A DNA stretch of 64,000 nt from Kibdelosporangium persicum. GTDB taxonomy: Bacteria; Actinomycetota; Actinomycetes; Mycobacteriales; Pseudonocardiaceae. Position numbers and translations under genes: made by a program. Each line of letters starts with the position of its first letter. The first letter of the stretch is position 1. The DNA is taken from NCBI RefSeq assembly GCF_013280595.1, contig NZ_JAAATY010000001.1, forward strand, positions 1 to 64,000, given 5' to 3'. Positions 292-61,689 of the stretch are shown in pieces. The notes under the pieces are model-generated. The model did not search any database. It saw only the letters and a list, made by a program, of their open reading frames with translations, and had not been told where the DNA came from.

Positions 292-325
292 ATCTGGGTT
301 AGAACACCGATAAACACTCACGAGG
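292..325. repeat. Dispersed 48-nt palindrome, copy 1 (right half only)
   Basis: Loop GGGTTAGAACACC plus right arm GATAAACACTCACGAGG (309-325) are identical to the other copies, but the left arm is absent and replaced by the presumed IS1380 right end. The right arm contains the stop codon (TGA read on the minus strand at 320-318) of the dynamin-like gene. Confidence 0.85.
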
Positions 326-1928
326 GGTGGGTGGGGCGTGGGAACGCGGTGGTCTTGTCATCCGGGGCCGGCTTGCGCAGGTTCTCGGTCTTGTCGACCG
401 GGACAGGGCCGGGGCGGCGGGGCGGAACCGGTGCCCGGCCCCCGGACGGACCCTGCGGCGGCCGCTGGGGTGTGGCTCGGACGGCGGACGACAGGCCCTC
501 ACAGGTTCGTTGCAGCACCTGAGCCGCCCGGGTGAAGCTGGGATCGATCAACGGGTTCTGCGCCACCCGCCGCCAATGCCCGTGCATTCCGGTGATCGCG
601 GCCTGGACGGTCTCCCAAGGCGCGTCCGGCCGCAGGTTCAGCCGGTCGGCCACCGAAGTGCCTTGCCCGCCGAGCAAGCGCTCCATGACCGCGATCTGCT
701 CGGCCGGAGCTTGCACGGACCCGGTCCGCAGTTCGGTGAGCAACCGCAGTTCGGTGAGTTCGTGCGCGCCCGCCCGCAACCGCTCGACGGCCTGGCGCAG
801 CCTCGGGGCGGCCGGGATCGGGTCGTTGCGCGTCACGGTCTCGATCGCCCGCAGGGCACCGTCGGCCTTCAGGACGTCCCGCCGTTGCGCGAACTGGGTC
901 AGCAGCAGCCGCCTGAGTTCGTTGAGCCCACTGCGTTCCCGCAACACGTCGCACAGCTGGACGCGATCGACCTTGCCGGAACGCAGTGTCTCGAGGCTGA
1001 GCCGGATTCCGTACAGACCCAGCATCGCGAGCAGACGTTCGCGCGCCGCGATGTCCACAGTGACCGATCGGGTCGGGGCGGTGAACCGCACCGCTGAAAG
1101 CAGAAGCGGCATGGTCGCGCTTTCGCTGGCCGAGGCGATGCCGGCGAGATCGGCGAATTCCTTGTCGCTCATCGTCGCCGCGGTTTCGGCGAGGAGACCC
1201 GCGACGGGCAGCACGGTGTGCACGAGGCTTCGAATCCGGGAGTCGGCACGGTAACCCGCGGCGACCTTGCCCGCGTGGGCGATCGCGTCGTCGTCGCCAC
1301 CGCCGATTTCGTCCGCACGGGACAGCACTCCGATGGCGTTGACGGGAGAACTGTCGGTGGCGTCGCCGTCGTTGAAGGCATCGAGGAAGTCGATGTCTGT
1401 CGAGTGCAGGTGCCGCATCAGGTACAGCACCGCGTCGACACTCGCCGTCTCGCCGAGGAAATCCTGCGTACGGCGGCCTGCCGACTCGGTGAGCGAACCC
1501 ATTCCGGGTGTGTCCACCAGGGTCATCTGGCCGAGCCACTCGCTCGGCAGCGACACCTCGATCCGGTCGACGCCTTCGACGTCCAGCGTGCCGAGGTCCA
1601 GGGTGTAGCGGCTGCCGTCGTGGTCGATCGCCAGCCCCACCGGCCTGGTGCCCTGCGGGAAAGCGGTCGCGCGCGGCTGCGGGCCGCGGAAGTACCACGT
1701 GACGATCCGGGTGCACTCGCCCGCGTCGGTCGCGGCGATCCTCGTGCCCACCAGCGCGTTGAGCAAAGTGGACTTGCCGGCCTTGACGCGCCCGGCGATC
1801 GCCACCCGCAGCGGGCCGTCGAGGTGCCGGGCGACGTCGGTCAGGATCCGGCCGCCCTGTCTGCCCTGGTATGCCTGGACCGCGTCGTTCAGCAACGACC
1901 GGACCCGTGCGGCAAGCGAAACTGTCAC
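318..1928 (-). CDS. Dynamin-like GTPase (second of a pair)
   Basis: A 536-residue large GTPase of the bacterial dynamin-like superfamily (DynA/DynB, IniA/IniC type), expected to act on membranes by GTP-dependent remodelling. Visible G motifs are the P-loop GRVKAGKS (residues 46-53), the G3 motif DTPG (139-142) and a G4-like SRAD (203-206). The rest is helical, and a Pro/Arg-rich tail follows residue ~500. No clear transmembrane segment is seen, so membrane contact may come from the partner encoded upstream. The start overlaps the stop of the upstream dynamin gene by 4 nt, which implies translational coupling. Oddly, the last codons (Pro-Ser-stop) lie in the arm of a dispersed palindrome. The family is confident; the cellular role is inferred. 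Confidence 0.87.
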   Translation of the reverse strand: MTVSLAARVRSLLNDAVQAYQGRQGGRILTDVARHLDGPLRVAIAGRVKAGKSTLLNALVGTRIAATDAGECTRIVTWYFRGPQPRATAFPQGTRPVGLAIDHDGSRYTLDLGTLDVEGVDRIEVSLPSEWLGQMTLVDTPGMGSLTESAGRRTQDFLGETASVDAVLYLMRHLHSTDIDFLDAFNDGDATDSSPVNAIGVLSRADEIGGGDDDAIAHAGKVAAGYRADSRIRSLVHTVLPVAGLLAETAATMSDKEFADLAGIASASESATMPLLLSAVRFTAPTRSVTVDIAARERLLAMLGLYGIRLSLETLRSGKVDRVQLCDVLRERSGLNELRRLLLTQFAQRRDVLKADGALRAIETVTRNDPIPAAPRLRQAVERLRAGAHELTELRLLTELRTGSVQAPAEQIAVMERLLGGQGTSVADRLNLRPDAPWETVQAAITGMHGHWRRVAQNPLIDPSFTRAAQVLQRTCEGLSSAVRATPQRPPQGPSGGRAPVPPRRPGPVPVDKTENLRKPAPDDKTTAFPRPTHPS

Positions 1929-3766
1929 GACCGGCCTTTCTGAGTCACCCGTTCCGCGCTGGCCAGCAGCGCCGACACCCGGTCGAGCTCGGCCTTCGCC
2001 GCCGCGCCCCTTGTCGCCGCGGCCTGCGCGTCGGCCTGGACCGCCCGCATCGCGGCCTCCTGCTCGTGCCTGGCCGCGGAGACCAGTTCCTGCGCCTGGT
2101 CGAGGTAGTAGTCACGGATCTTGCCGCGGCTGTGCCTGATCAGGTCGTACGCGGCCCGGTTGGCGTCCACTCGCGCCTGGTTCAGGTACACGGCGGACGC
2201 ACGCAACGCCTCCGCGCGAGCCGCGTCGAGCTTGGTCGTCTTGTAGCTGCGGACCGCGCGCCACGCGAACACCGAACCCAGCGCGGCGGTGATCGGCAGG
2301 ACGATCAGCAGGCTCGGCGCCAACGTGGTGACCAGCACTGTCGTGACGACCGAACTGGACAACGACCAGCCACGGGCGGCGTGCATGCCCACTTCGAGCT
2401 TGCCGCCCTTCTTGCTGGCCAGGCCCTCCAGCTTCAGATCGTGGCCGACGGACATGTCGGTGCCTCGGGAGACCGCGTCCACCTGGTCGGCCGTCGCGTC
2501 GAACAACGCCGCGATGTCGTCCGCGAGCTCGTTGATCTGGCGGATCAGCCGCGTGTGGACGTCGGTCATCTCCTCGTTGGTGCGTTTCTGCAGCCACGGC
2601 ACGATCTCCGACCACTCCTTGGTCGGGTCGCCCTCCTTGATCCGCTTGGTGACCTCGTTCTCCAGCCTGCGTGTGCAGTCGGTCAGGTCGGCGTCCACGG
2701 CCGCCTGGATGTCGGCGAACCGGTCGGTGATCGTGTTGAGCCAGCGTGCCGATGGGCTGGACAGCGCCTTGGCACGCTCGCCGCTCGCCTCGACCTTGCG
2801 CATGGTCGCCTGGCGTTGCTCGGGTTTGGTCAGCGCCGCGTGCTCGGTCGCCAGGACGTCGGCGACCTGGCGCAGTGAGTTGCGGACGACACCGGCCGCC
2901 GCCAGCACGGACTTCGCCGCGTGGTCGGCCAGCAGCCGGGAACCCAGGCGCTCGACCAGGACCGGGAAGCCGCACTCGGCGTTCAGCGCCGGATCGCCCG
3001 TGTCCAACGCCAGTTCCCGCAGCACCGACGACACCGCGACGATCTCCGCGTCGATCCCGGCCGCCTTCAGGTGCTGCCGGTCCAGGTCGAGAATCCGTCG
3101 CCACTGCGGGTAGAAGTCGGTCTTGGTGAGCGCGACGATCAGGTTCGGGCAGACGTCGGCCGCGTGCTTGACGAAGTCGACCTCGGCCGCGGTGAGTTCC
3201 TGCGACGCGTCCGTCACGACGATCACGCCGTCCGCGAGAGCAAGCGCTCGCATGGTCGCCGAGGCCGCGGCAGCCGCGAACCCGCCGCCGAGACCCGGCG
3301 TGTCGACCAGCACGAGGCCGTCGGCCAGCAGCTCACGCTTCACCGTCGTTTCGATCGCCCGCAGCCGGGTTCCGTCGTCGGCCAGCCCGGTCCGGGCATA
3401 GTCGGCGGCCTTCCGGATGTCGATCTTGATGGGTGGCGGCAGCTGCGCCGCGTCCGCGGGGGCCTCGGGAACCAGGTAGGCGGCCGGTTTGTCACCGTGC
3501 TTGACCGATGTCGGCACGGCCGTGAACGCGACCGGATCCACTCCGCACACCGGCACCCCGAGCAAGCCGTTGATCAGCGCGCTCTTGCCCTTCTTGAACT
3601 CGCCCGCGACCAGCACGTGCCAGGCGCCGGTGGTCAGCTGGCGACGGCACTTGATCAGCTTCTCGGCCAGGTCGGGCCGTCCCGCCGAACGGGTCTCGGT
3701 GATCGCGGTGTCGATCAGTTCGAGCATCTCGGCGGTCTCGGCCGCGTTCCGCGTTGCTGTCGTCAT
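1925..3766 (-). CDS. Dynamin-like GTPase with putative membrane segment (first of a pair)
   Basis: A 613-residue dynamin-like protein. The GTPase motifs are complete: P-loop GEFKKGKS (residues 55-62), DTPG (155-158) and TKTD (214-217). A long helical stalk region follows. Around residues 460-500 there is a strongly hydrophobic stretch (VVTTVLVTTLAPSLLIVLPI) suited to a membrane paddle or hairpin. Bacterial dynamins often occur as co-transcribed pairs that form hetero-oligomers; this gene overlaps the second dynamin by 4 nt. It begins 5 nt after the stop of a signal-less peptidoglycan hydrolase gene, so the three genes form one minus-strand operon. This suggests coordinated envelope work such as septation, lysis or repair; which one cannot be told from sequence. 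Confidence 0.88.
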   Translation of the reverse strand: MTTATRNAAETAEMLELIDTAITETRSAGRPDLAEKLIKCRRQLTTGAWHVLVAGEFKKGKSALINGLLGVPVCGVDPVAFTAVPTSVKHGDKPAAYLVPEAPADAAQLPPPIKIDIRKAADYARTGLADDGTRLRAIETTVKRELLADGLVLVDTPGLGGGFAAAAASATMRALALADGVIVVTDASQELTAAEVDFVKHAADVCPNLIVALTKTDFYPQWRRILDLDRQHLKAAGIDAEIVAVSSVLRELALDTGDPALNAECGFPVLVERLGSRLLADHAAKSVLAAAGVVRNSLRQVADVLATEHAALTKPEQRQATMRKVEASGERAKALSSPSARWLNTITDRFADIQAAVDADLTDCTRRLENEVTKRIKEGDPTKEWSEIVPWLQKRTNEEMTDVHTRLIRQINELADDIAALFDATADQVDAVSRGTDMSVGHDLKLEGLASKKGGKLEVGMHAARGWSLSSSVVTTVLVTTLAPSLLIVLPITAALGSVFAWRAVRSYKTTKLDAARAEALRASAVYLNQARVDANRAAYDLIRHSRGKIRDYYLDQAQELVSAARHEQEAAMRAVQADAQAAATRGAAAKAELDRVSALLASAERVTQKGRS

Positions 3767-3771
3767 ACGCC

Positions 3772-5340: not shown

Positions 5341-5476
5341 GCCGCCATTATGTTTGACTCCGGCGGCCGGTGGGTGGCATTTCGTGTGCCCAAAAGGGCA
5401 CTGTTCGCGCAGGTGGGTGCCGCTTGGTGTTAGTTTCGGGCGCGACGGTGTCCTGCGGTGATTCCCGAGGGGTGAA

Positions 5477-8177: not shown

Positions 8178-8191
8178 CCCGCGTGTCCACC

Positions 8192-8323: not shown

Positions 8324-8355
8324 GTCCGCGGACCGACCGGGAATGTCACCGTGCT

Positions 8356-23411: not shown

Positions 23412-24155
23412 ATGAGTCTTCCTCAGATCGTGTCGCGGGACGAATGGCTGGCCGCCCGGCAGGAGCTGCTGGTCAAGGAGAAGGCGGCGACCAGGGCGCG
23501 GGACGAGCTGAACGCCGACCGCCGCAGGCTGCCCATGGTCGAGATCGACAAGGAGTACGTCTTCGAAGGCCCGGACGGCAAGGCCGGCCTGCTCGACCTG
23601 TTCGAGGACCGGCTACAGCTGGTGGTCTACCACTTCATGTTCGACCCGGAGTGGGAAGCCGGCTGCCGGAGCTGCTCGGGGTTCCTCGACGACCTCGGGC
23701 ACCTCACCCACCTCAACGTCCGCGGGACCACGTTCGCGGCGGTGTCGCGGGCGCCGTTCGAGAAGATCGCCGGGTTCAAGGCGCGAATGGGCTGGAACGT
23801 GCCCTGGTACTCGTCCTACGGCAGCGACTTCAACCACGACTTCGACGTCACGCACGACGAGTCGGTCAAGCCGATCGTCTACAACTACCGGTCCAAGGAA
23901 GAGCACATCAACGCCGGGACCGGCTACTACATCGAGAACGCCGGCCAGCCGTTCGAGCTGCCCGGGCTGAGCGCCTTCCTGCGCGACGGCGACCGCGTCT
24001 TCCACACCTACTCGACCTACGGCCGGGGTGTCGAGCTGCTCACGAGCACCACGGCCATCCTCGACATCACCGCCCTCGGCCGCCAGGAGGACTGGGAGGA
24101 GCCCAAGGGTCGCACCACGGGTCTCGGCGCCCAGGCAGGCAGAACTCCCTCGTGA
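23412..24155 (+). CDS. DUF899 thioredoxin-like family protein
   Basis: A 247-residue protein of the DUF899 family, which adopts a thioredoxin-like fold. Signature segments: DEWLAARQELLVKEKAATRARDELN (split around residues 10-35), RRRLPMVEIDKEYVFEG, LVVYHFMFDPEWEAGCRSCS (with the Cys-x2-Cys, ~76-95) and NVPWYSSYGSDFNHDF. AGGAGAAG precedes the ATG. The redox role is presumed, not shown. Oddly, the protein ends Pro-Ser with the TGA stop supplied by the left arm of a 48-nt dispersed palindrome, just as the dynamin gene at the left end of the window does. The alditol oxidase follows 60 nt later. Confidence 0.82.
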   Translation: MSLPQIVSRDEWLAARQELLVKEKAATRARDELNADRRRLPMVEIDKEYVFEGPDGKAGLLDLFEDRLQLVVYHFMFDPEWEAGCRSCSGFLDDLGHLTHLNVRGTTFAAVSRAPFEKIAGFKARMGWNVPWYSSYGSDFNHDFDVTHDESVKPIVYNYRSKEEHINAGTGYYIENAGQPFELPGLSAFLRDGDRVFHTYSTYGRGVELLTSTTAILDITALGRQEDWEEPKGRTTGLGAQAGRTPS

Positions 24156-24195
24156 GTGTTCATCAGGGTTAGAACACCGATAAACACTCACGAGG
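24148..24195. repeat. Dispersed 48-nt palindrome, copy 2
   Basis: Left arm CCTCGTGAGTGTTCATC (24148-24164, one mismatch to the right arm), loop AGGGTTAGAACACC, right arm GATAAACACTCACGAGG (24179-24195). It lies between two plus-strand genes and overlaps the stop codon of the first. Confidence 0.97.
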
Positions 24196-31276: not shown

Positions 31277-32170
31277 ATGCGTGCCCTGGTCACCACCCCG
31301 GACACCAAGTTCGGGTTGCAGTTGCGGGAGGCTCCCGACCCGGCGCCGTCACCCGATCAGGTTCTTGTCGAGGTGCGCCATGCCTCCCTGAACCACGGAG
31401 ATGTCGGGTACTCGGCGACCGAAGCCCCTGGCAAGGTCATGGGCTGGGACGCGGCAGGCGTGGTCGTCCAGGCGGCGGCGGACGGCACCGGCCCGGAGGT
31501 GGGAGCACGCGTACTGACCTACGGCCCGGACGGCGCGTGGGCGCAGAAGCGCGCGGTTTCGGTGAACGAGCTGGCTGTCGTGCCGGACTCGGTGGACCTG
31601 GCGGTGGCGTCCACGCTGCCGGTCGCCGGGGTCACCGCGGTGCGCGCGCTGCACCGGTCGGGAGCGATCGCGGGCAAGCGAGTGCTGGTCACGGGCGCTT
31701 CCGGCGGTGTCGGCCGGTACGCGATCCAGATCGCGGCGCGGGAAGGCGCGCACGTGGTCGCGCTCGCGCGGCGGGGCGAAGGGCTTGCCGAGCTCGGCGC
31801 CCGGGAAGTCGTCGCCGACCTGGACGACGTCGAGCCGGTCGACGTGATCCTGGAGAACGTCGGCGGTCCGACACTGGTGCGAGCGTGGGCCCTGCTGAAG
31901 ACCGGCGGCGTGCTGCAGAGCATCGGGTGGACGTCGATGGAGCCCGCGGTGTTCCAGCCGTACGCCACGGTCGTCCCGGCGAAGTCGCTCGTGTCGTTCC
32001 AGGCGGGCAACGGCTACGCGTCCGACCTGGAGTACCTGCTCAAGCTGGTCGCCGACGGCGAACTGAAGGTGGACATCGGCTGGCGCGGCTCGTGGACCGA
32101 CTTCGACGAGGCCGCCGCGGCACTGTTCGGCCGTCAGGTCTCCGGCAAGGCCGTGCTGGACATCGACTAG
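31277..32170 (+). CDS. Zinc-independent MDR oxidoreductase (quinone reductase-like)
   Basis: A 297-residue NADPH-dependent medium-chain reductase. N-terminal GroES-like part: LREAPDPAPSPDQVLVEVRH, ASLNHGDVG, MGWDAAGVVV. The Rossmann segment VLVTGASGGVGRYAIQIA and the LENVGGPTLVRAWALLKTGG strand match quinone oxidoreductase/crotonyl-CoA reductase-like proteins. No zinc-binding cysteines are present. ATG 31277 is preceded by GGAGG. The stop overlaps the convergent ECF sigma gene's stop. The substrate is not predictable. Confidence 0.84.
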   Translation: MRALVTTPDTKFGLQLREAPDPAPSPDQVLVEVRHASLNHGDVGYSATEAPGKVMGWDAAGVVVQAAADGTGPEVGARVLTYGPDGAWAQKRAVSVNELAVVPDSVDLAVASTLPVAGVTAVRALHRSGAIAGKRVLVTGASGGVGRYAIQIAAREGAHVVALARRGEGLAELGAREVVADLDDVEPVDVILENVGGPTLVRAWALLKTGGVLQSIGWTSMEPAVFQPYATVVPAKSLVSFQAGNGYASDLEYLLKLVADGELKVDIGWRGSWTDFDEAAAALFGRQVSGKAVLDID

Positions 32171-32739
32171 ATAGCGAAGCGCCGCCGAGGTGTGTCGGTG
32201 TCCTTCATCGACGTGATCAGGTCGTCGCGGGCCCTGGCCACGCGTGACCGGATCGTGCCGACAGGGCAGTCGCAGACCTCGGCGGCGTCAGCGTAGGACA
32301 GTCCGAGCGTCTGGGTGAGCACGAACGCCTCGCGGCGTTCGGTGTCCAAGGACCTGATCAGCTCTTCGAGGACGACACCTTCCTCGAAACCGGCCACCTG
32401 CTGCACGCGCTCGGCCGCGGCCTGCCAGTCGGGCACGTCAGCGTGGCGCGGCCGAACCTGGGCCGCCCTGATCTGGTCGACCACGACCCGGCGCGCGATC
32501 GACAGCAGCCAGGTCCGCGCGGACGAGCGCCCTTCGAACCGGGCCAGGCTGCCCAACGCACGCAGGTAGGTCTCCTGCGCGAGGTCGTCGGCCAGCTTCG
32601 GGTCGGCGAGATGCGCGACGAACCGCCAGACGTCCCGCTGAGTGGCACGGATGAACCGCTCGAGGGCGGTCCGGTCGCCACGCCGGGCCTCGAACGCCAA
32701 CTGGGTGATCTCCGTGTCCTCAGGCCTCACAATTACCAC
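32167..32739 (-). CDS. ECF RNA polymerase sigma factor (SigC-like)
   Basis: A 190-residue group 4 sigma factor. Region 2 reads RDVWRFVAHLADPKLADDLA then QETYLRALGSLARFEGRSSA and RTWLLSIARRVVVDQIRAAQ. Region 4 is RREAFVLTQTLGLSYADAAE followed by CPVGTIRSRVARARDDL. No anti-sigma gene lies beside it, and there are no extra C-terminal domains. It resembles mycobacterial SigC in lacking an adjacent anti-sigma. The upstream gap to the divergent GNAT gene carries a diverged palindrome (32818-32863). Confidence 0.89.
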   Translation of the reverse strand: MVIVRPEDTEITQLAFEARRGDRTALERFIRATQRDVWRFVAHLADPKLADDLAQETYLRALGSLARFEGRSSARTWLLSIARRVVVDQIRAAQVRPRHADVPDWQAAAERVQQVAGFEEGVVLEELIRSLDTERREAFVLTQTLGLSYADAAEVCDCPVGTIRSRVARARDDLITSMKDTDTPRRRFAI

Positions 32740-32817
32740 AACGTAGTGGATCGATCCCGAGTCCGGTCACCCGCCGGTCGGACCAACCTCCCGGACCGCG
32801 CTTTCCCCAGCGTACGG

Positions 32818-32863
32818 CTCGTGAGTGGTTATCCGGGTTCTAACCCGGATTTTCGCTCACGAG
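32818..32863. repeat. Diverged member of the dispersed palindrome family
   Basis: Outer arms CTCGTGAG (32818-32825) and CTCACGAG (32856-32863) match the family, but the interior forms its own perfect dyad, ATCCGGGTTCTAACCCGGAT (32831-32850). The CTCACGAGGGG right edge matches the other copies. It lies between divergent gene starts. Confidence 0.8.
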
Positions 32864-32888
32864 GGGTTGCTGGCCTACAGTGATCACG

Positions 32889-35217: not shown

Positions 35218-35805
35218 TCAGCTGCCGTGGTACCACTGGATCATCGACTGGGCCAGCGGGCTTTCCCCGGCTGTGCCGACTGTGAGGTCCACTCCGGACG
35301 CCACAACCCGTTCGCTGTAGCGGATCGTGGTGTGACCGTGGTGCCATGCGCCGCCCCACAACGCGGTTTCCAACGCGCTGAGCACCAGGTCTGTGGTGAG
35401 CGGGGCGCATCGTTCGTACGCCAGGACTTTGCGGGCTGACTCGTCGACCACGAACAGCGCGCCGCCGTAGTAGTCCACGAACCACCGCCGCAGCGGCGGG
35501 CCGCCGCTGGGCGGCCGGGGACCGGCGGAGATCTTCAGCTCACGCATCAGCCGCTCCACCGTGCAGCGGGCGACCCGGATGCCTTCGCCGTTGAGGTGCC
35601 GCCAGATGCGCCGTGAGCCGGCGCCGGTCTCGGCGAAGACCCGCAGGATCTCGCGTTTCAGCTCCTCGTCACGGCGTGAGCGGGGTGACGGCGGCCGGGC
35701 GACGGCCGCGTAGTACGTCGATGGAGCGATCCCCAGTACCCGGCAGATCGGCTCGACTCCGAAAGTGCTCTTGTGCTCGTTGACGAACTTGATCAGCTGC
35801 TCGGT
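35218..35805 (-). pseudogene. Degenerate IS3-family transposase OrfB
   Basis: Read in the -1 frame from the end of OrfA (TEQLIKFVNEHKSTFGVEPI, CRVLGIAPSTYYAAVAR), the frame stays open through the HTH_21-type segment and VERLMRELKIS. It then shrinks: the integrase core survives only as RRWFVDYYGGALFVVDESAR and LTTDLVLSALETALWGG followed by HHGHTTIRYSERVVASGVD. The HHSDRG motif has lost its Asp (HHGHTT), and the catalytic Glu of ALAESIIGLYK is Gln here (PLAQSMIQWYH). The last ~70 residues are missing. It cannot be an active DDE transposase. Confidence 0.75.
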
Positions 35806-36110
35806 CGCGGGTCGAGCTCCCGCGCGAAGAAAGCCGATGCCGCCTTGAGGATCTCGTTCGAGCGCCGCAACCGCTGGACTTCCCTGGACAGCTCGGTGAT
35901 CCGGCGTTCCGCGGAGATCGCCTCACCGGGCGACTCGCCGTGGATCTCGGCGTGGCGGACCCACGTGCGCAGGGACTGGTCACCGATCCCGAGCCGGGTG
36001 GCGACCTCGGCGATCACCCCGTAGGAGTTGCCGCGGGCCCGCCGGGTGTCGAACACCAGGCGGACGGCACGCCTGCGCAGGTCGTCCGGGTACTTCTTGG
36101 GTGCGGGCAC
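35793..36110 (-). CDS. IS3-family transposase OrfA (helix-turn-helix subunit)
   Basis: A 105-residue HTH_Tnp_1-type protein beginning PAPKKYPDDLRRRAVRLVFD at GTG 36110. Helix-turn-helix: VIAEVATRLGIGDQSLRTWV. The C-terminal leucine-zipper-like ERRITELSREVQRLRRSNEI and ILKAASAFFARELD are standard for IS3 OrfA, where a -1 frameshift normally fuses it to OrfB. OrfA looks intact, but the partner frame has decayed. I could not find terminal inverted repeats. It lies between the Lrp gene and the cyclophilin terminator. Confidence 0.83.
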   Translation of the reverse strand: MPAPKKYPDDLRRRAVRLVFDTRRARGNSYGVIAEVATRLGIGDQSLRTWVRHAEIHGESPGEAISAERRITELSREVQRLRRSNEILKAASAFFARELDPRPSS

Positions 36111-36197
36111 AGTCAGATGGTGCCCGGTCACCCGCACAGAGCCCGCACAATCGGCGTACAACAGCCGCCGGGCACCCGCCGGTTCCAGATCACGCCG

Positions 36198-36956: not shown

Positions 36957-38189
36957 ATGGAACGCATGCAGGCCACAAAGACCTGGGGAAGGCTGCTGCT
37001 CGCGGCCGTCATCATGACCACGGCGCTGCCCGGCACCGCTTCGGCGGCCGCGCAGTCGCACTCCGAGAAGATCATCTTCGACGGCGGCGGGGATGACACG
37101 CTCAACGGCATCCGGTACCACTCGTTCCGCATCCCGGCACTGATCCGGACCACCGGCAACACGCTGATCGCGTTCGTCGAGGGCCGGGCGGCGAACAACC
37201 GCGACTACGGCAACATCAACCTGCTGTACAAGCGTTCCACCGACAACGGCGCCACGTGGTCCAAGCTGGACGAGGTGGTCGGCGGCGGGCAGGGCGTCTG
37301 GGGCAACCCGACGCCGGTGGTCGACCGGTCCACCGGCAAGATCTGGCTGTTCATGAACCACCAGCCGGAAGGCCACCACCCCGTCGACTCGTGGGACGAC
37401 CGGCAGGTCTGGCTGTCGTCCAGCACCGACGACGGCGTCACCTGGCAGGCGCCGGTGAACATGTCGGAAAGCCTGAAACCCCGCACCCTGGCCTCCGGCA
37501 AGAGCTGGAACTGGGACGCGGTCGGCCCCGGCGTGGGCATCCAGACCACGGTGCGTAACCCCGGCAGGCTCGTGATCCCGGCGCAGCACCGGCACATCTA
37601 CAGCGACGACCACGGTGCGACCTGGAAGGTCCAGGTCATGCGGACCACCACCGGCGCGGCGATGGAACAGACCGGCGAGTCCACCGTGCTCGAACTGGCC
37701 GACGGCAGGCTGTACCGCAACGACCGGCCGACGTCGGCCAACTGGGAGACCGTGAAGCGGCGCTGGGTCGCCCGCGGCACGATCGAGTCCGGGTTCACGC
37801 CGTTCTCCGGCGCGGACTGCCTGCTCGATCCGCTCAACGAAGCCTCGACCATGCGGTACAACGCCGACGCGCCCGCGCGTCTGGCCTTCGTCAACTCGGC
37901 GAGCACGACCACCCGCACCAAGATGCGCATCCGGATGAGCGAGGACGAAGGCAAGACCTGGAGCTACAGCCGTCCGTTCTCCGACGCGCCGCTGCCCGGC
38001 GAAAGCTCGACGTACAAGGAAGGCGGCTACTCCAGCATCGTCAAGACGGCCGACTACCACGTCGGTGCGCTGATCGAGGTCAACGAGAACACCGGCAGCA
38101 GTTCGACCTCACACCGGTCGATCGCGTTCCGGAAGGTGAACCTGCCGTGGATCCAGGGTGGGGTTCAGGAACCGAACTGCACCGAGTAA
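36957..38189 (+). CDS. Secreted sialidase (GH33-like)
   Basis: A 410-residue exo-alpha-sialidase. A signal peptide covers the first ~30 residues (WGRLLLAAVIMTTALPGTAS). The RIP motif is YHSFRIPALI, with the Arg that binds the sialic-acid carboxylate. Four Asp boxes are visible: STDNGATW, STDDGVTW, SDDHGATW and SEDEGKTW. The catalytic Glu/Tyr pair would lie in GESTVLELADGRLYRN and near KEGGYSS. It releases terminal sialic acids from glycans. Unusual but not unique for a soil actinomycete; no sialate catabolism genes are near. ATG 36966 is an alternative start. Confidence 0.89.
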   Translation: MERMQATKTWGRLLLAAVIMTTALPGTASAAAQSHSEKIIFDGGGDDTLNGIRYHSFRIPALIRTTGNTLIAFVEGRAANNRDYGNINLLYKRSTDNGATWSKLDEVVGGGQGVWGNPTPVVDRSTGKIWLFMNHQPEGHHPVDSWDDRQVWLSSSTDDGVTWQAPVNMSESLKPRTLASGKSWNWDAVGPGVGIQTTVRNPGRLVIPAQHRHIYSDDHGATWKVQVMRTTTGAAMEQTGESTVLELADGRLYRNDRPTSANWETVKRRWVARGTIESGFTPFSGADCLLDPLNEASTMRYNADAPARLAFVNSASTTTRTKMRIRMSEDEGKTWSYSRPFSDAPLPGESSTYKEGGYSSIVKTADYHVGALIEVNENTGSSSTSHRSIAFRKVNLPWIQGGVQEPNCTE

Positions 38190-38239
38190 TCACATCGGAT
38201 GTCCGTGCGCCGCGCCGTCGAGGTTGGGTACAAAGTGGT

Positions 38240-38674
38240 ATGACCAGTTCCCACCTTGATGGCGCGATCCAACTGCCCGACGGGACCTGGATCCGCGGCC
38301 GGGGCCTGCGAAACCCCGCGCCTCCTGGCCTGGCGCCGGACTACGGCCTGTACCTCGGATCGGCGAAGCTGCGCGGGAAGCACGAGTTCGGCTGGCCGCA
38401 CGACTGGGTCGAGTGGCCGGACTTCCTGCTCCCGAAGGACAAGGCCGCGGCCGTGCGCGCGATCCGCGACCTGTACGACACCGCGCGCTCAGGCAAACGC
38501 GCGGAAGTCGCTTGTGGAGGCGGCGTCGGCCGGACCGGCACGGTGATGTCCTGTCTGGCCATCCTCGCCGGAATCGCCCCGCACGACGCCGTCACCTGGG
38601 TGCGCGAGCACTACCACCGCCGGGCGGTCGAAACCCCGTGGCAGCGAAAGTGGGTCCTGAAGTTCACCCCCTGA
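38240..38674 (+). CDS. Small dual-specificity/tyrosine phosphatase-like protein
   Basis: A 144-residue protein with a PTP-type P-loop: VACGGGVGRTGTVM, with Cys92 and Arg98 in the C-x5-R motif. It lacks the usual His before the Cys (Ala instead). FLLPKDKAAAVRAIRDLYDT resembles the segment before the P-loop in small bacterial phosphatases. No signal peptide. Substrate unknown (phosphotyrosine, phosphoinositide or RNA 5'-phosphate are all possible). It ends 5 nt before a dispersed palindrome and is convergent with the GCS2-type operon. Confidence 0.75.
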   Translation: MTSSHLDGAIQLPDGTWIRGRGLRNPAPPGLAPDYGLYLGSAKLRGKHEFGWPHDWVEWPDFLLPKDKAAAVRAIRDLYDTARSGKRAEVACGGGVGRTGTVMSCLAILAGIAPHDAVTWVREHYHRRAVETPWQRKWVLKFTP

Positions 38675-38679: not shown

Positions 38680-38727
38680 CCTCGTGAGTGTTTGTCGGGG
38701 TTAGAACACCGATAAACACTCACGAGG
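38680..38727. repeat. Dispersed 48-nt palindrome, copy 4
   Basis: Left arm CCTCGTGAGTGTTTGTC (38680-38696), loop GGGGTTAGAACACC, right arm GATAAACACTCACGAGG (38711-38727). It sits between two convergent genes with 5 nt on each side, where a bidirectional terminator would be expected. Confidence 0.97.
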
Positions 38728-38731: not shown

Positions 38732-40210
38732 TTAGTCCATGGGCCAGGCGTGGACGGGGGTGTTGGAGTGCATGTTCGTGATGTACAGGTTCAGCATGGT
38801 CCGCAGGGCGGTGTAGCGGTCGGCGTTGTCGCGCTGCTCGATCCGGGCGACCTCGTTGACCTGCCAGGTGGCGCCGTTGCGGCCGGTCAGGCAGCGGTCC
38901 TGGATGATGCCGAGCAGCCGGTCCCGCTCGTCGGGGTGCACGCCCCAGCGGTCCAGGCCTTCGTAGGCCATCGGCAGCAGCCGCCGGAGCACGAGCTCCG
39001 CGGCGGGCACAAAACCGACGCCCGGCCAGTAGAGCTGGGCCTCGATGCCGTGCCGCGCTCCGAGGTGGAAGTTCTCCTCCGCGGCGCTGAACGACATCTG
39101 CGACCAGATCGGCCGTTCGGCCTCGGCGAGCATACGCACCACGCCGAAGTAGAACGCCGCGTTGGCAAGCATGTCCGCGACGGTGGGACCGGCAGGCAGC
39201 ACACGGTTCTCCACCCGCAGGTGCGGAGTTCCGTCGACCACGTCGTACACCGGCCGGTTCCACCGGTAGATCGTCCCGTTGTGCAACCGCAGCTCGGCCA
39301 GTGACGGGATCTGTCCCGCCTCCAAGGCGTCGAACGGGTCCTCGTCGTCCAGAATGGGCAGTAGCGCGGGGTAGAGCCGGACGTTCTCCTCGAACAGGTC
39401 GAACACCGACGTGATCCACCGTTCGCCGAACCACACGCGCGGCCGCACGCCCTGGGCTTTCAGTTCGTCCGAGCGGGTGTCGGTGGCCTGTTCGAACAAC
39501 GGAACCCGGGTTTCCTGCCACAGGTTCTGCCCGAACAGGAACGGCGAGTTGGCGGCCAGCGCGAGCTGGACGCCCGCGATGGCCTGGGCGGCGTTCCAGT
39601 ACGCCGAGAACTGCGCCGGGCTGACCTGAAGGTGCAGTTGTGAGCTGGTGCAGGCCGATTCCGGGGCGATCGAGTCGCAGGTGACCTCGAGGCGTTCGGT
39701 GCCTTCGATCGCGATGTGCATGTCCTCGCCGCGCGCGGTGAAGATCTGGTCGTTCAGCAGGGCGTAGCGCGGATTCGCCGACAACGAGTCCCGCGTGAGG
39801 TCGGTCGCGCGCAGGGTCGGCAGGATGCCGACCATCACCATGTGCGCGCCCTGGGTCCGTGCCTTGGTCTCCGCGGCGTTCAGGCTGGCCCGGACCTGAT
39901 CCTCGAACCGTGTCACGCCACCGCCGGCCAGTTCCCGCGGCTTGACGTTGATCTCGATGTTGAACTGGCCCAGTTCGGTGACGAAGTCCTCGTCGGCGAT
40001 GGCGTTGAGCACCTCCTCGTTGCGCATTGCCGGCTCGGTCCGGTTGTCGACCAGGTTCAGCTCGATCTCCAGGCCGGTCATCGGCCGTTCGAAGTCGAAC
40101 CGGGACTCCTGCAGCATCCGGGCGAACGCGTCCAGGCAGCGCCGGACCTTGTGGCGGTAACGGGTTCTGTCCTCGCGGCTGAACTCCCGCCGCTCGACTT
40201 CCTGTCCCAT
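38732..40210 (-). CDS. GCS2-type carboxylate-amine ligase (glutamate-cysteine ligase-like)
   Basis: A 492-residue protein of the glutamate-cysteine ligase 2 family (YbdK/EgtA-like). Family features: GLEIELNLVD (metal/ATP-binding Glu pair near residue 46-52), ELGQFNIEINVKPREL, SSQLHLQVSP and HLRVENRVLPAGPTVADMLA with the conserved Arg-Val-Glu-Asn-Arg. These enzymes activate a carboxylate with ATP and couple it to an amine. Last of a four-gene operon with an ATP-grasp protein and two esterases, 6 nt after the ATP-grasp stop. Glutathione is unlikely in an actinomycete, so the product is probably a different gamma-glutamyl or aminoacyl amide. Confidence 0.84.
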   Translation of the reverse strand: MGQEVERREFSREDRTRYRHKVRRCLDAFARMLQESRFDFERPMTGLEIELNLVDNRTEPAMRNEEVLNAIADEDFVTELGQFNIEINVKPRELAGGGVTRFEDQVRASLNAAETKARTQGAHMVMVGILPTLRATDLTRDSLSANPRYALLNDQIFTARGEDMHIAIEGTERLEVTCDSIAPESACTSSQLHLQVSPAQFSAYWNAAQAIAGVQLALAANSPFLFGQNLWQETRVPLFEQATDTRSDELKAQGVRPRVWFGERWITSVFDLFEENVRLYPALLPILDDEDPFDALEAGQIPSLAELRLHNGTIYRWNRPVYDVVDGTPHLRVENRVLPAGPTVADMLANAAFYFGVVRMLAEAERPIWSQMSFSAAEENFHLGARHGIEAQLYWPGVGFVPAAELVLRRLLPMAYEGLDRWGVHPDERDRLLGIIQDRCLTGRNGATWQVNEVARIEQRDNADRYTALRTMLNLYITNMHSNTPVHAWPMD

Positions 40211-53386: not shown

Positions 53387-53427
53387 GAATCGCCGCACGC
53401 GGGAACAAAGCCCGCGTGCGGCGATTC
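53387..53427. terminator. Terminator of the polyamine operon
   Basis: Perfect 17-bp stem GAATCGCCGCACGCGGG / CCCGCGTGCGGCGATTC with a 7-nt loop, 18 nt after the exporter stop codon. Confidence 0.87.
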
Positions 53428-53440: not shown

Positions 53441-53488
53441 CCTCGTGAGTGTTTATCAGGGTTAGAACACGGATAAACACGCACGAGG
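53441..53488. repeat. Dispersed 48-nt palindrome, copy 5
   Basis: Left arm CCTCGTGAGTGTTTATC (53441-53457), loop AGGGTTAGAACACG, right arm GATAAACACGCACGAGG (53472-53488, one mismatch). It lies between two other hairpins in a convergent intergenic region. Confidence 0.97.
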
Positions 53489-53519
53489 AGGCCCCTTGTG
53501 CTTGCGCACAAGGGGCCTC
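53488..53519. terminator. Terminator of the FHA operon (minus strand)
   Basis: 14-bp perfect stem starting GAGGCCCCTTGTGC with its complement GCACAAGGGGCCTC and a 4-nt TTGC loop, 35 nt beyond the FHA gene stop. Confidence 0.82.
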
Positions 53520-54959: not shown

Positions 54960-54975
54960 GGGATTTCCCCTCTCT

Positions 54976-56511: not shown

Positions 56512-56611
56512 CGTCCTCGATGTCTGCGCCAGGGCAGGCCATGTGGCGGCCTGGCGCCGGTCGTGGTCAGCGGCAAGCGTCCGTGAAGGGGCGTCGCACA
56601 GCCGTGACGTG

Positions 56612-56866: not shown

Positions 56867-57009
56867 CGTGGCCCTCCTCGGTTGGCGCCCGGTGGCGCCG
56901 TCCATTACAGCTTCTGGCAAGCGTTTTGACCAGCCGCGTCATGGTCGGGTGACGTCGGGGCGGTCAAGATCGGCGTTCATCCGCCGCCCATAGGTCTACG
57001 GGGTCGTTC

Positions 57010-58347: not shown

Positions 58348-58381
58348 CCGCGGTGGGCCGGAAGTTCCGGAAAAGAATCTT

Positions 58382-58410
58382 GTAACGCTGTGCGTCCGGC
58401 CGGCCACTGT
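58382..58410 (+). promoter_or_regulatory. Candidate ECF-type promoter of the SARP gene
   Basis: GTAACG (58382-58387) and CACTGT (58405-58410) with a 17-nt spacer. The same pair with 16-nt spacing precedes the anti-sigma-like gene at 60410. GTAAC is a common -35 element of ECF sigma factors. Confidence 0.45.
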
Positions 58411-58444
58411 GTAGAAGCACCCGCTGACGACTTCGGGAGGGACA

Positions 58445-59266
58445 GTGACCGGGTTAGCAGAGCGAGTCTTTTCCACCGCCACGCAGGAAACCGCCGAACA
58501 GGAGGCAAGGATCATCAGGCTGCCGACCGCGGCCGGACAGGACCTGGCCGCCGAGCCCACCGGCCGCGCCACCGCCAGGGTGAACATGCTCGGTGGATTC
58601 CAGTTACTGGTCAACGGTGAACTGGTGCAGGTCAGCCTCACCGGGCAACGGCTGCTCGCGGTCGTCGCCTGCCGGCCAGGACCTGCGGTGCGCAGTCAGG
58701 TCGCGCACGTGTTGTGGCCGGACACCACCAGTGTCCGGGCGCACGCGAACCTGCGGACCGCGGTGTACCGGCTGGAACGCAGCTGTCCGGGCATGCTCGA
58801 GGCGACCAGCTCGTACCTGCGGCTGGCGCCGGGCATCACCGTCGATCTGGACCAGACCCGTGAGCTCGCCACGCGGATCCTGGCCACCGCGGGCCCGTTG
58901 GACCCCGAGCTGGTCAAGGACGCGCTCGAGGCGAACCTGTACGACGACCTGCTGCCGGAGTGGGACGAGGACTGGCTGTGCGAGCACCAGAGCCGGTACC
59001 GGCAGCTGCGACTGTCCTGTTTGGAAACTCTGTCGCAGCGGCTGGCGGAGTCCGGTCACCACGGTGCCGCCGTGCACGCCGCACTGGCCGCGGTGCACGC
59101 CGACTCGTTGCGCGACAGCGCACACGAGACGCTGATCAGGGCATGCCTGACGCAGGGCAACCGGCACGAGGCGCAGACTTACTTCGCCTCGTACCAAAGG
59201 ATCTTCCGCACCGAGCTGGGCGTCGAGCCCGCCGCGACCATCGGCCAGCTGCTGCGCACCGGCTGA
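58445..59266 (+). CDS. SARP-type regulator (winged helix plus BTAD)
   Basis: A 273-residue Streptomyces-antibiotic-regulatory-protein-like activator. After a ~45-residue leader come the OmpR-like winged helix (VNMLGGFQLLVNGELVQVSL, LLAVVACRPGPAVRSQVAHV, LWPDTTSVRAHANLRTAVYR) and the BTAD tetratricopeptide-like domain ending YFASYQRIFRTELGVEPAAT. GTG 58445 has GGGAGG upstream. SARPs usually activate pathway-specific operons; no biosynthetic cluster is adjacent, so the target may be distant. The promoter region shares a motif with the anti-sigma-like gene at 60410. Confidence 0.87.
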   Translation: MTGLAERVFSTATQETAEQEARIIRLPTAAGQDLAAEPTGRATARVNMLGGFQLLVNGELVQVSLTGQRLLAVVACRPGPAVRSQVAHVLWPDTTSVRAHANLRTAVYRLERSCPGMLEATSSYLRLAPGITVDLDQTRELATRILATAGPLDPELVKDALEANLYDDLLPEWDEDWLCEHQSRYRQLRLSCLETLSQRLAESGHHGAAVHAALAAVHADSLRDSAHETLIRACLTQGNRHEAQTYFASYQRIFRTELGVEPAATIGQLLRTG

Positions 59267-59369
59267 GCTGTGGTGATTCCGCTCCGGCACCGAACCGCCA
59301 CGCTGTGCTTGGTCGCCGAGTCCGTTCGTTGCACGCGCGGGTTCACCGACTTCGCGTTAGTCTCAACCA

Positions 59370-60050
59370 ATGGGGATCGAAGCGGGGGAGGGGGAACAAC
59401 CCTTCCCGCCCGACAGTGAACTCGTCGCCCGCCTGCGGGGCCGGGACGAGACGGCCTTCGTGCTGATGGTCGGTTCCTGGTCGGGCGGGCTGCTGAGACT
59501 GGCGAGACATTTCGTCTCCACCAACGATTCCGCCGCCGAGGTCGTGCAGGACACCTGGCTCGCGGTGATCCATGGCCTCGACTCGTTCGAAGGCAGATCG
59601 TCCCTGAAGACCTGGGTCTGCCGGATCCTGGTCAACACCGCGAAGCGCCGCGGTGTGCGGGAGGGCCGGACCATTCCGTGGAGCAGCCTGCCCGTCGCGC
59701 AGGACCAAGGGCCGACCGTGGATCCTGCTCGGTTCCTCGGCCCGGAGTCGGAAGATCCAGGTCACTGGCGGGTGTTCCCGCAGCCGTGGCCGATGCCGTC
59801 GCCGGAGCAGGAGGCGGTGGCCAAGGAGACGAGGGCCGTTGTCGAGGAGGCCCTCACGCACCTGCCCGACCGGCAACGCATAGTGATTACGCTGAGGGAC
59901 GTGGAAGGGTACAACGCCGAGGAGGTGTGCTCCATTCTGGAGCTCAGCGCGGCCAACCAGCGGGTTCTGCTGCACCGCGCGCGGGCGTTCGTCCGCGGGC
60001 GGCTCGAGGAGTACTTCGCGGGAGCCAAGGCGGCGGCTGATGGGGGATGA
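59370..60050 (+). CDS. ECF RNA polymerase sigma factor
   Basis: A 226-residue group 4 sigma factor. Region 2: RLARHFVSTNDSAAEVVQDT, WLAVIHGLDSFEGRSSLKTW and VCRILVNTAKRRG. Region 4: LPDRQRIVITLRDVEGYNAE, EVCSILELSAANQRVLLHRA. A linker rich in Pro/Trp (FLGPESEDPGHWRVFPQPWP) between the regions is long. It overlaps the start of a mini anti-sigma gene by 11 nt, its probable partner. The start codon ATG 59370 has no obvious ribosome site. Confidence 0.88.
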   Translation: MGIEAGEGEQPFPPDSELVARLRGRDETAFVLMVGSWSGGLLRLARHFVSTNDSAAEVVQDTWLAVIHGLDSFEGRSSLKTWVCRILVNTAKRRGVREGRTIPWSSLPVAQDQGPTVDPARFLGPESEDPGHWRVFPQPWPMPSPEQEAVAKETRAVVEEALTHLPDRQRIVITLRDVEGYNAEEVCSILELSAANQRVLLHRARAFVRGRLEEYFAGAKAAADGG

Positions 60051-60294
60051 TGCCGATCCAGGTGAGATGAGTTGTGCGCAACTGGTCGAGTTGGTCACCG
60101 ATTTCCTCGACGGCACACTGGATCCCGACACCAGCGACCGGTTTGAGGAGCACCTGCGCATCTGCGACGGCTGCGACACGTACATCGAGCAGTTCCGGCG
60201 GACGATCGACACGCTCGGCAGCCTGCCGGAGGCCGGCCTCCCGGAGGACGCGCGTGACGCGTTGCTGAACGCGTTCCGTGACTGGCCGAGGTAA
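60040..60294 (+). CDS. Mini zinc-finger anti-sigma-like protein (paralogue 2)
   Basis: An 84-residue protein with EMSCAQLVELVTDFLDGTLD followed by the zinc motif EEHLRICDGCDTYIEQFRRT (His-x3-Cys-x2-Cys). It overlaps the ECF sigma gene by 11 nt and is the likely cognate anti-sigma factor. Closely similar to the next gene and to the protein at 56612. Soluble, with no membrane or sensor domain, so it probably responds to intracellular redox or zinc changes, as ZAS proteins do. Confidence 0.86.
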   Translation: MGDDADPGEMSCAQLVELVTDFLDGTLDPDTSDRFEEHLRICDGCDTYIEQFRRTIDTLGSLPEAGLPEDARDALLNAFRDWPR

Positions 60295-60308
60295 GTGCCG
60301 GATTCGGC

Positions 60309-60336
60309 GTAACGTTTCGACGCCTCGCGACACTGT
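60309..60336 (+). promoter_or_regulatory. Candidate ECF-type promoter of the second anti-sigma gene
   Basis: GTAACG (60309-60314) and CACTGT (60331-60336) with a 16-nt spacer, matching the motif before the SARP gene. It suggests that the two genes share a sigma factor, possibly the ECF factor encoded at 59370. Confidence 0.45.
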
Positions 60337-60409
60337 TACACCATAAGACATTTTTTGTGGCTCGTCGCAGACAGTCCGGGGCGAGCGCACCATCGCAGGC
60401 GGTGACAGG

Positions 60410-60649
60410 ATGCCCGAACTGAGTTGCGCCGAGTTGGTCGAGCTTGTCACCGACTTTCTCGAAGGGACACTCGATCCTGGGACGAGGGACCGGTTCTACA
60501 GCCATCTCGCGATGTGCGAGGGCTGCGGTCCGTACGTGGACCAGATGCGGATGACCGTGCGAACGCTCGGTGACCTCCCCGAGGAGTCAGTGCCCGCCGA
60601 GGTGCGTGACGCGCTGCTGGCGGCGTTCCGGGAAGGGGAGACCCGATGA
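60410..60649 (+). CDS. Mini zinc-finger anti-sigma-like protein (paralogue 3)
   Basis: A 79-residue protein: MPELSCAELVELVTDFLEGT, then SHLAMCEGCGPYVDQMRMTV with the His-x3-Cys-x2-Cys zinc motif, and RDALLAAFREGETR. It is nearly collinear with paralogue 2 (same LVELVTDFL and LPE segments), indicating recent duplication. It has its own upstream region with a GTAACG motif and overlaps the next small gene by 4 nt. Confidence 0.86.
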   Translation: MPELSCAELVELVTDFLEGTLDPGTRDRFYSHLAMCEGCGPYVDQMRMTVRTLGDLPEESVPAEVRDALLAAFREGETR

Positions 60650-60855
60650 ACATCGTGACCGAGTTGACGAACCTGTCGCTGCACCGGCCCGCTCCGGACG
60701 CGACCGACGCCGAGGTCGCCACCTGGTACGAGCGCAAGGCGACCGTGCACGACGCCATGGCCGCCGACGCGGACGGCGTTGTCGCGGCCAAGGAACGTGC
60801 CTACGCCGCGGCCGCGCGGGCGCATGCCAGATCGCTGTCCCAGGCGGCCGCCTGA
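60646..60855 (+). CDS. Small helical protein after the anti-sigma gene
   Basis: A 69-residue protein without a recognisable domain. It starts MNIVTELTNLSLHRPAPDAT by a 4-nt overlap with the preceding gene, so it is very likely translated. Composition is Ala-rich and charged (EVATWYERKATVHDAMAADA, AYAAAARAHARSLS), predicting two helices. It may form part of the anti-sigma regulatory unit. Confidence 0.6.
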   Translation: MNIVTELTNLSLHRPAPDATDAEVATWYERKATVHDAMAADADGVVAAKERAYAAAARAHARSLSQAAA

Positions 60856-60874
60856 CCGTCCACTGTGGGCAGGG

Positions 60875-61372
60875 TCAGAGCAGGCCGCGGACGAAGGCCG
60901 CTTGGCCGGTGTGCTGCAGAACGTCCGAGATCACGCTGATCAGACGGACGCCCAGGGTCACCGGCGGGTCCCACGACTCGTCGACGATCCGCTCGAGGTC
61001 CTTGTTGGTCAGCGTCCTGACGTACTGGATGGTCTGCTCGTGCGTCGCGTCGTGGTAGCCGGTCAGCAGTTCCGCGGTGGCCTGTACTTTCGCCACCTGC
61101 TTCGCTGTGTGACCGTAGCCGGTGTCGGTCGGGTCGAGCGGCAGGCCGAACCGGTCGGCCCAGCCCTCGCCGGTCCACACCTGGGGGATGCCGGCGGCGT
61201 CGGCGATGTGGTCGTCCTGGACACGGGTGAGGTGCCAGACGAGCCACGCGATGGTGTTCGCCTTGTCGTTCACCCGGAGCGTGAGGTCTTCGGGGGACAG
61301 GCCGTTGACCACCGCGTGAACTTCCTCCTGGACACGACCGAACGCGTCGACGAGCAACTCCGCGCTTGTCAT
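60875..61372 (-). CDS. DinB/DUF664 family protein
   Basis: A 165-residue four-helix-bundle protein of the DinB/YfiT-like superfamily. Metal-binding histidines are placed as in the family: WLVWHLTRVQDDHIADA (His47, His54 region), GYHDATHEQTI and ISVISDVLQHTGQAAFVRGL. In actinobacteria many such proteins are thiol-dependent S-transferases or isomerases using mycothiol. It could therefore be a mycothiol-dependent detoxification enzyme; the substrate is unknown. Confidence 0.82.
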   Translation of the reverse strand: MTSAELLVDAFGRVQEEVHAVVNGLSPEDLTLRVNDKANTIAWLVWHLTRVQDDHIADAAGIPQVWTGEGWADRFGLPLDPTDTGYGHTAKQVAKVQATAELLTGYHDATHEQTIQYVRTLTNKDLERIVDESWDPPVTLGVRLISVISDVLQHTGQAAFVRGLL

Positions 61373-61482
61373 GGCACCGACCCTACCGGCTGATCACCGC
61401 TTCGCGCAGGTCGAGCACGCTCTCCCGAGCGACTGTCCACAGTAGAGGAATATGGTTCTCGTCCACTGTATCCGGCACAGGT

Positions 61483-61638
61483 TCAGGCATCGGTGACGAT
61501 TCCTTCGAGCAGCAGCGTCAGGAGCCGGTCGACGCTGCTCGGGCTGTGCTCGTTCGCCGACGAGAGCGACGTGACGAGCAGCAACAACGCGCATCTTGAA
61601 CCCCTTGCTGACCGGAGGTCAGCTCCGTTTCGTACCAT
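61483..61638 (-). pseudogene. Degraded TetR-type C-terminal remnant
   Basis: A 51-codon frame whose last ~30 residues (LLLLVTSLSSANEHSPSSVD, RLLTLLLEGIVTDA) look like the C-terminal helices of a TetR regulator. The first ~15 residues (MVRNGADLRSARGS) have no such character. No helix-turn-helix part is present; the frame starts 4 nt from a dispersed palindrome. It seems to be a truncated relic, though a genuine small protein cannot be excluded. Confidence 0.45.
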
Positions 61639-61641
61639 ACT

Positions 61642-61689
61642 CCTCGTGAGTGTTTATCAGTGTTAGAACACGGATAAACACTCACGAGG
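61642..61689. repeat. Dispersed 48-nt palindrome, copy 6 (most symmetric)
   Basis: Left arm CCTCGTGAGTGTTTATC (61642-61658), right arm GATAAACACTCACGAGG (61673-61689). The loop AGTGTTAGAACACG itself contains GTGTT-AG-AACAC, so this copy is almost fully self-complementary. Confidence 0.97.

Follow-up and report, generated by a model that had tools for sequence, protein, structure and literature searches.

The first 64 kb of contig NZ_JAAATY010000001.1 (C1) of Kibdelosporangium persicum (draft genome of 10.35 Mb in 89 contigs; the 64-kb stretch is called the window below) contain several copies of a near-perfect palindrome of 44–48 bp, which a preliminary description of the window had picked out as a dispersed repeat family. 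We favor, with moderate confidence, the reading that this is a repeat similar to the repetitive extragenic palindromic (REP) sequences, that it works as a bidirectional hairpin at transcript ends, and that a copying process keeps its copies alike within a species. The most telling result is that different hairpins are found at the same orthologous site in related genomes.

Copy number, anatomy and fold of the repeat

A pattern requiring exact arms is found at 178 places in the host genome, and its reversed control at none. When up to three mismatches in 32 specified bases are allowed, the host has 384 such places, genome G007 has 103, G002 eight and G004 one, and the remaining 37 of the 41 genomes have none. 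Scoring every position of C1:1-864000 gave 55 copies with at most eight of 40 fixed positions changed; two further halves, each split by an insertion sequence (IS), lie in this 864-kb stretch beyond the 55 copies, and a base-shuffled control, which preserves single-base composition only, contains none with up to 14 changes. Members of this family account for 51 of the 74 strong hairpins in the stretch. Two findings had been named in the preliminary description as telling against a dispersed family, copies confined to the window and a loop not conserved over the genome; both failed to appear, because copies occur genome-wide and the core is identical in all 55 copies of the 864-kb stretch (these copies, on which the position-by-position conservation figures below are based, were selected for similarity by the threshold of eight changes).

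The copies in the window are listed below together with the IS end that splits the first of them (the repeat copies are given without strand). The four full copies first described at 24148, 38680, 53441 and 61642 are indeed there, and so is the diverged copy placed at 32818, which starts at 32817. The 17-nt arms that they were said to share are found again: there are 10 matches at no more than three mismatches, versus 0.03 expected from 100 dinucleotide shuffles.

1..297, forward strand: right end of an IS1380-family element, with identical ends elsewhere in the genome; transposase C-terminus at 2-145 by match
292..325: half copy, split by the IS; core GTTAGAAC at 298-305; the right arm at 309-325 holds the stop of a Dynamin_N gene at 318-1928 (minus strand)
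24148..24195: full element with one arm mismatch; its TGA at 24153-24155 ends a DUF899 gene at 23412-24155 (plus strand)
32817..32864: diverged element between divergent genes, with six of 40 fixed positions changed; a sigma-factor gene at 32170-32739 (minus strand) lies to the left
38680..38727: full element between convergent genes, a phosphatase-like gene at 38147-38674 (plus strand) and a GCS2-like gene at 38732-40210 (minus strand)
53441..53488: full element between convergent genes, an EamA transporter gene and an FHA-domain gene, with gaps of 71 and 65 bp
61642..61689: full element with no fixed position changed, between a divergent MST/DinB gene at 60875-61372 (minus strand) and a SpoIIE/response-regulator gene at 62033-63226 (plus strand)

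The repeat unit reads TCGTGAG(TG), inner stem, GTTNNAAC, inner stem, (CA)CTCACGA, with CCTCGTGAG and CTCACGAGG at its ends. Its arms and core hardly vary; its inner stem shows covariation and is not the same from species to species. As the invariant core we read GTT-(AG or CT)-AAC, i.e. GTT-NN-AAC; with the core aligned as AG, there is no variation at TCGTGAG, G18, GTTAGAAC, C29 and CTCACGA across the 55 copies, save for one T-to-G change in a right arm. The variable parts are the inner arm and the bases flanking the core: at position 12 of the 48-mer, most changes are matched at the partner position (T-A in 42 copies, G-C in seven), and AC is frequent after the core without being a rule (A is found there in 36 of 55 copies). 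Weak conservation reaches about 11 bases beyond the repeat, C/A-rich on the left and G/T-rich on the right. Within the 864 kb, GTTAGAAC occurs 57 times in elements and never elsewhere.

RNA folds of six 68-nt pieces have energies between -25.6 and -44.0 kcal/mol (z-scores between -3.8 and -8.4), with a stem of about 20 bp, mismatches beside the tip and about 4 nt open at the tip. The 14-nt loop with a conserved core that had been proposed is thus accurate as to the core, which is invariant, and inaccurate as to the loop, which is partly paired. We also made a gap-free alignment of 59 copies from the host (12 of the 55, picked partly for variety), G001, G002, G003, G004, G007, Amycolatopsis circi and A. 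dendrobii, the relatives' copies having been fetched because they match; 12 of its 22 pairs are changed on both sides (8.2 in shuffles), and its covariation score is 0.233, compared with 0.080 when shuffled and at most 0.049 in slid controls. The repeat itself has no match in Rfam, searched with the window at the gathering score and with 10 loci at E 0.1.

The preliminary description had left a protein binding site and an RNA structure side by side, and had noted more conservation than ordinary terminators need, which holds. The covarying stem supports a hairpin of the RNA type. A symmetric palindrome could instead mirror a symmetric, dedicated DNA-binding protein that organizes the chromosome or acts as a global regulator, and it is true that arms and core are invariant at a fixed spacing, that copies are spread genome-wide, and that the core is AG in 29 copies and CT in 26, so that the unit has no strong direction (relative to transcription the count, made by eye, is about 10 AG to 8 CT in 18 tandem cases). 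However, the inner stem is free in sequence yet complementary in each copy, which recognition of a duplex does not need, and the copies are strongly biased to gene 3' ends (see below). A dedicated trans-acting protein was not found among the data examined here, and we regard this explanation as conceivable but improbable.

Stop codons and gene 3' ends

Placement was evaluated with a simple self-trained gene caller, which predicts 781 genes in the 864 kb. Out of the 55 copies, 26 lie between convergent genes, 18 between tandem genes and nine between divergent genes, and two overlap a gene end. A gene 3' end is found within 40 bp of 44 copies, compared with 11.4 when copies are placed at random in intergenic space (maximum 19 in 300 draws), and 23 copies have a gene 3' end on both sides (1.0 at random); gene 5' ends, in contrast, are found within 40 bp of only 13 copies (18.4 at random). 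The claim that most copies sit at gene 3' ends or between convergent genes therefore applies to four of the six window copies (292, 24148, 38680 and 53441), and not to those at 32817 and 61642, which lie between divergent genes. The same placement is seen in other genera, where 24 loci (30 covariance-model loci minus six of the host's genus) all have a gene 3' end within 60 bp, and 15 of them on both sides, by a permissive gene-end test that has no random control.

The repeat often provides the stop codon of a gene. A stop codon at arm positions 6-8 ends 15 predicted genes, nine on the plus strand (where the TGA is printed) and six on the minus strand (by position), and two more predicted genes stop on a TAG in the core. 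For example, a GTPase gene at C1:692032-693852 (L054) is predicted to run into an element and to stop on the TAG in its core; we take its product to be a translation GTPase resembling ribosomal-protection proteins.

It is most likely that the arm supplies the stop codon and that the hairpin, nearly the same from both sides, then makes a ready-made gene end. Polymerase arriving from either gene would transcribe the stem of about 20 bp, which would fold into the same long hairpin, and this hairpin may act as a bidirectional terminator, as a block to 3'-5' exonucleases, or as both. The copies would be renewed from current master sequences by a process other than one using a Y1 transposase of the REP-associated tyrosine transposase (RAYT) kind, which would keep them alike within a species. 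Judged from sequence, termination at the repeat is plausible: the stable hairpin just after the stop that is typical of intrinsic terminators is present, as both the folds and the 44 of 55 copies near a gene 3' end indicate.

Different hairpins at orthologous sites

At one convergent site in genus g16, where 12 of 22 loci could be aligned on both sides, two genomes have the repeat and 10 have a GTGA(A/G)GGCC..GGCC(T/C)TCAC hairpin in the same place (among these ten, one lacks part of the left arm, one has an N and one is about 200 bp longer). In locus L244 (G246), an N and an odd stretch lie inside the hairpin of the orthologous gap; this is likely an assembly artefact at the hairpin, and the odd stretch looks to us like sequencing-adapter sequence. 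A second case is the comparison of G076 with G220: out of six elements in 200 kb, two are shared and four are replaced by a third type of hairpin, whose arms are of the kind ATGAAAGG and whose centre resembles TTGCAAATTTTGCAA. Between G076 and G106, all four alignable sites hold another hairpin in G106 (three of the third type and one GTGAAGG hairpin). At position 84971 of G076, both G220 and G106 retain an apparent right arm of the repeat beside a third-type hairpin.

For the host and G007 we tried 21 sites, of which eight aligned with gaps shorter than 400 bp, three aligned with gaps of 669-2095 bp and 10 did not align. Contents were counted for the eight: G007 has the element at five, a GTGAAGG hairpin at one, a terminator-like hairpin ending CTTTT at one and none at one (24148). 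The place orthologous to 38680 holds a differing copy in G007 and yet another hairpin in G006. With G004, four of the 21 sites aligned, and the element is in neither of the two short gaps shown.

Further hairpin repeats were seen along the way. The stretches of G220, G076 and G106 (L264-L289) contain two further families, GTGAAGGCC..GGCCTTCAC and ATGAAAGG..TTGCAAATTTTGCAA.., and the inner stem of the latter differs between G220 and G106. A second, longer repeat of the host, with arms GTTCCGGCACC(A/G)TGAG..TTTCA(C/T)GGTGC(C/T)GGAAC, recurs in convergent gaps (window 8301, C1 225538-225700 and 469503-469570).

The copies of one genome resemble each other more than they resemble their counterparts. 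For the inner stem, identity is 0.832 within the host, 0.757 within G007, 0.703 for pairs across the two sets and 0.655 for five orthologous pairs, so that shared sites are no more alike than random cross-species pairs; around the eight aligned sites, the flanks share 80-90% identity. A 200-kb stretch of G076 has six copies, five of them letter-identical, and in G001 one inner stem is common to five of the six copies fetched as matches. Either the copies are homogenized or the sites are re-occupied from a current master, and a copying process is therefore needed either way.

A wider reading, which we put forward tentatively and hold to be somewhat less likely than not, is that the transcript-end hairpin is an exchangeable cassette in this actinobacterial family. 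Several unrelated hairpin families of similar architecture (conserved outer arms, a species-specific complementary inner stem and a conserved centre) would enter and leave the same gene-end sites by copying; they could bring their own stop codons, and a copying process without any known REP transposase would keep them alike within a genome.

Copy-like spread, as in the letter-identical copies of G076, would also be expected of a selfish palindrome that is merely tolerated at gene ends, its hairpin (as single-stranded DNA or a cruciform) serving its own propagation and not the ending of transcripts. Such a repeat could rewrite a gene end, as at 24148, where the element occupies the place of a DUF899 gene end that is conserved among G001, G002 and G004, and could also land between divergent genes. 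But divergent intergenic space is three times larger than convergent space (23684 versus 7817 bases) and holds nine copies versus 26, and relatives carry other hairpins in the same place. We consider this explanation unlikely, though it is the strongest of the alternatives to a transcript-end hairpin.

Several observations weigh against a transcript-end hairpin kept alike by copying. The U-tract is weak (17 tandem cases have 40 T among 204 downstream bases), while longer T runs follow several G001 copies. Eleven of the 55 copies are more than 40 bp away from any gene 3' end, and nine, including two of the window, lie between divergent genes. At 53441, other strong hairpins stand on either side of the copy, at 53387-53427 and 53489-53518 (the latter read directly from the sequence), so that it has rivals as the terminator of that site. 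Among the 67 convergent gaps measuring 20-400 bp, the element is present in 26, another hairpin scoring at least 9 in 18 and neither in 23, so such hairpins are not obligatory. No such hairpin is found at the place of 24148 in G007, G001, G002 and G004, and no comparable one at that of 32817 in G001, G002 and G004. The orthologous inner-stem comparison has five pairs, and arm-to-arm correction within the hairpin could keep the arms symmetric without selection, an effect inseparable here from selection for pairing.

As for the weak U-tract, termination or end protection is still possible with it because the structured transcript ends of Streptomyces clavuligerus are mostly U-poor (353 U-poor versus 182 U-rich; PMC8269248; this and the other published systems are compared as parts of the cited papers describe them). 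Those ends share with our repeat, where the end is read from sequence alone, a strong hairpin at the transcript end with little U-tract; their sequences, however, are idiosyncratic, whereas ours are repeated and conserved.

Relatives of the repeat, possible movers and distribution

With 384 places in the genome, and 53 of the 55 copies intergenic or overlapping only gene ends, the repeat is REP-like in the broad sense of more than about 100 copies mostly outside genes, and to this extent the REP part of the label REP/BIME-like given at first is apt. It fails the tested features of the GTAG REPs with their RAYT, of the CGTC REPs, of bacterial interspersed mosaic elements (BIMEs) and of miniature inverted-repeat transposable elements (MITEs). 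Clusters of alternating REPs, as in BIMEs, are not seen in the 864 kb, where copies are spaced 15.4 kb apart on average and at least 1060 bp. We found no published description of the repeat in the open-licence literature, judged by title and abstract.

GTAG REPs (PMC2817692) are likewise short, high-copy, mostly extragenic palindromes with species-specific stems; they differ in having the terminal GTAG tetranucleotide, which neither end of our repeat carries, and a length of 20-40 bp instead of 44-48, and here there is no Y1 gene in the host and there are no doublets or BIMEs in 864 kb. Copy number, size, extragenic placement and species-specific stems would fit a standard REP moved by a RAYT (Y1, HUH) transposase, and such a gene had been expected. 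Y1_Tnp, however, has no match in the host at E 1e-3 (five of 14 control genomes match), and across 297 genomes of the host's family it is not associated with the repeat: a Y1 match is found in 34 of 137 element-bearing genomes versus 27 of 160 others (p 0.11), and in 13 of 73 genomes with at least 15 listed repeat matches versus 48 of 224 others (p 0.62). The eight closest intervals between elements, inspected by eye, contain ordinary genes only and no mobilizer gene. The RAYT explanation was therefore rejected as highly improbable, and a RAYT is probably not what moves the repeat.

CGTC REPs (PMC3733652) come nearest as a precedent for REPs that lack a transposase, being likewise palindromic repeats with no dedicated transposase found. 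They have stems of 8-9 bp and loops of 4-5 nt, whereas our repeat has a stem of about 20 bp and a conserved core, and the CGTC tag is absent from its ends; the phyla named in the main text of that paper do not include actinobacteria (0 occurrences).

Paired DNA-uptake signals that double as terminators in Neisseria and Haemophilus (PMC1852404, PMC2267715) are sequence-uniform inverted pairs at gene ends as well, and our repeat does contain a 9-mer, TCGTGAGTG, in inverted pairs at gene ends. They differ from it in that its half site is not found singly: single signals would be frequent, but the 9-mer occurs 101 times in elements and twice elsewhere in the 864 kb (7.3 expected). We rejected this candidate because single copies are nearly absent from that stretch, and give it almost no credence.

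The half copy at 292 had been attributed to an IS, and its splitter is an IS1380-family element with its right end at about window 297. The IS is about 1.65 kb long when joined by overlap with other copies; the transposase of the L068 copy matches NF033539 with 280 bits (cut-off 180), and there is a match to DDE_Tnp_1_4 as well. The core of the repeat is the target of the IS: all eight right and all eight left examinable ends fall inside the core, and every junction carries GTTNNAAC. An 8-bp target duplication is likely, though not proven, because contigs break at the IS and the flanks of one copy cannot be paired. IS elements specific to a dispersed palindrome are known from insertions into REPs (PMC1525189), where they belong to IS3, IS110, IS4, IS256 and IS5 (IS1380 has 0 occurrences in the main text), while here an IS1380-family element has GTTNNAAC on both sides. 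None of 16 loci with relatives of the IS in G007 and G006 shows the repeat beside the IS (ends were resolved for the 474-aa group), and seven of the 474-aa group lie at CTWAG sites.

The arms are inverted and begin with CC, and the IS ends, CCTGATCC and CCAGATCC, resemble the inner half of some repeat copies, so we considered a classical MITE or an IS1380 derivative, moved by a DDE transposase that reads the arms as terminal inverted repeats. In the 864 kb, however, the only lone arms are the two split by the IS and no larger element with these ends was seen; the 55 flanks, inspected by eye, lack obvious target duplications; and an IS1380 relative was not found in G001-G005, although the repeat occurs in G001, G002, G003 and G004 and the model gives hits in G005. 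This origin was judged very unlikely, for want, in that 864-kb stretch, of a partner with the repeat's ends and of obvious flanking duplications, and the mover is probably not the resident IS1380-family element.

Three side observations concern mobile elements of the host. The left end of the IS (L068:147-263, minus strand) matches Rfam Ms_IGR-7, an actinobacterial small RNA family, with 56.2 bits and starting exactly at the IS end, so this family may be an IS-end feature. At L076 (C1 ~91810-91860), the IS1380 right end is connected to a different transposase-like sequence through a run of N, i.e. a scaffolding gap. Within the window, an Rfam ALIL pseudoknot at 35722-35835 (minus strand) is next to a stretch, 35796-36161 (minus strand), that partially matches an IS3-family transposase with a score under the cut-off.

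With a covariance model (E 1e-3, with no more than 20 candidates scored per genome), the host's family gives hits in 137 of 297 genomes, which represent 26 of 46 genera, and exact pattern copies occur in A. circi and A. dendrobii among the matches listed. Loci of other genera keep the arms and nearly all have GTTNNAAC, with inner stems that differ yet are almost perfectly complementary. In a class-wide draw of 394 genomes including the host, there are matches at E 1e-5 in seven of the 393 others, all seven outside the host's family; the family and class rates are not directly comparable because of the different E-values and the limit of 20 candidates. One of the seven, G493, belongs to a different family of the class and contains 48-bp palindromes of its own (L213, L222, L226, L228 and L231), with GATCATGAACACTT arms, the same architecture and a related centre, which reads GTTATAAC at two of these five loci and departs from it by single changes at the other three. 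In G575, G582 and G672, most of the TCGTGAGTG arm is retained but the GTTNNAAC core is missing. Scattered arm-bearing hairpins thus exist outside the host's family. Phage and plasmid collections gave no blastn match at E 0.01 with one 48-mer variant as query.

If our reading is right, the gene 3' ends of many soil actinomycetes are partly furnished by mobile, standardized hairpins, and stop codons, protein C-termini and transcript ends would be edited in parallel across the genome. The IS1380-family element would then be a site-specific inserter with a palindromic target, and the elements are candidate bidirectional terminators for GC-rich hosts. The repeat also raises the testable question of how a 44-bp palindrome is copied when no RAYT transposase is involved.

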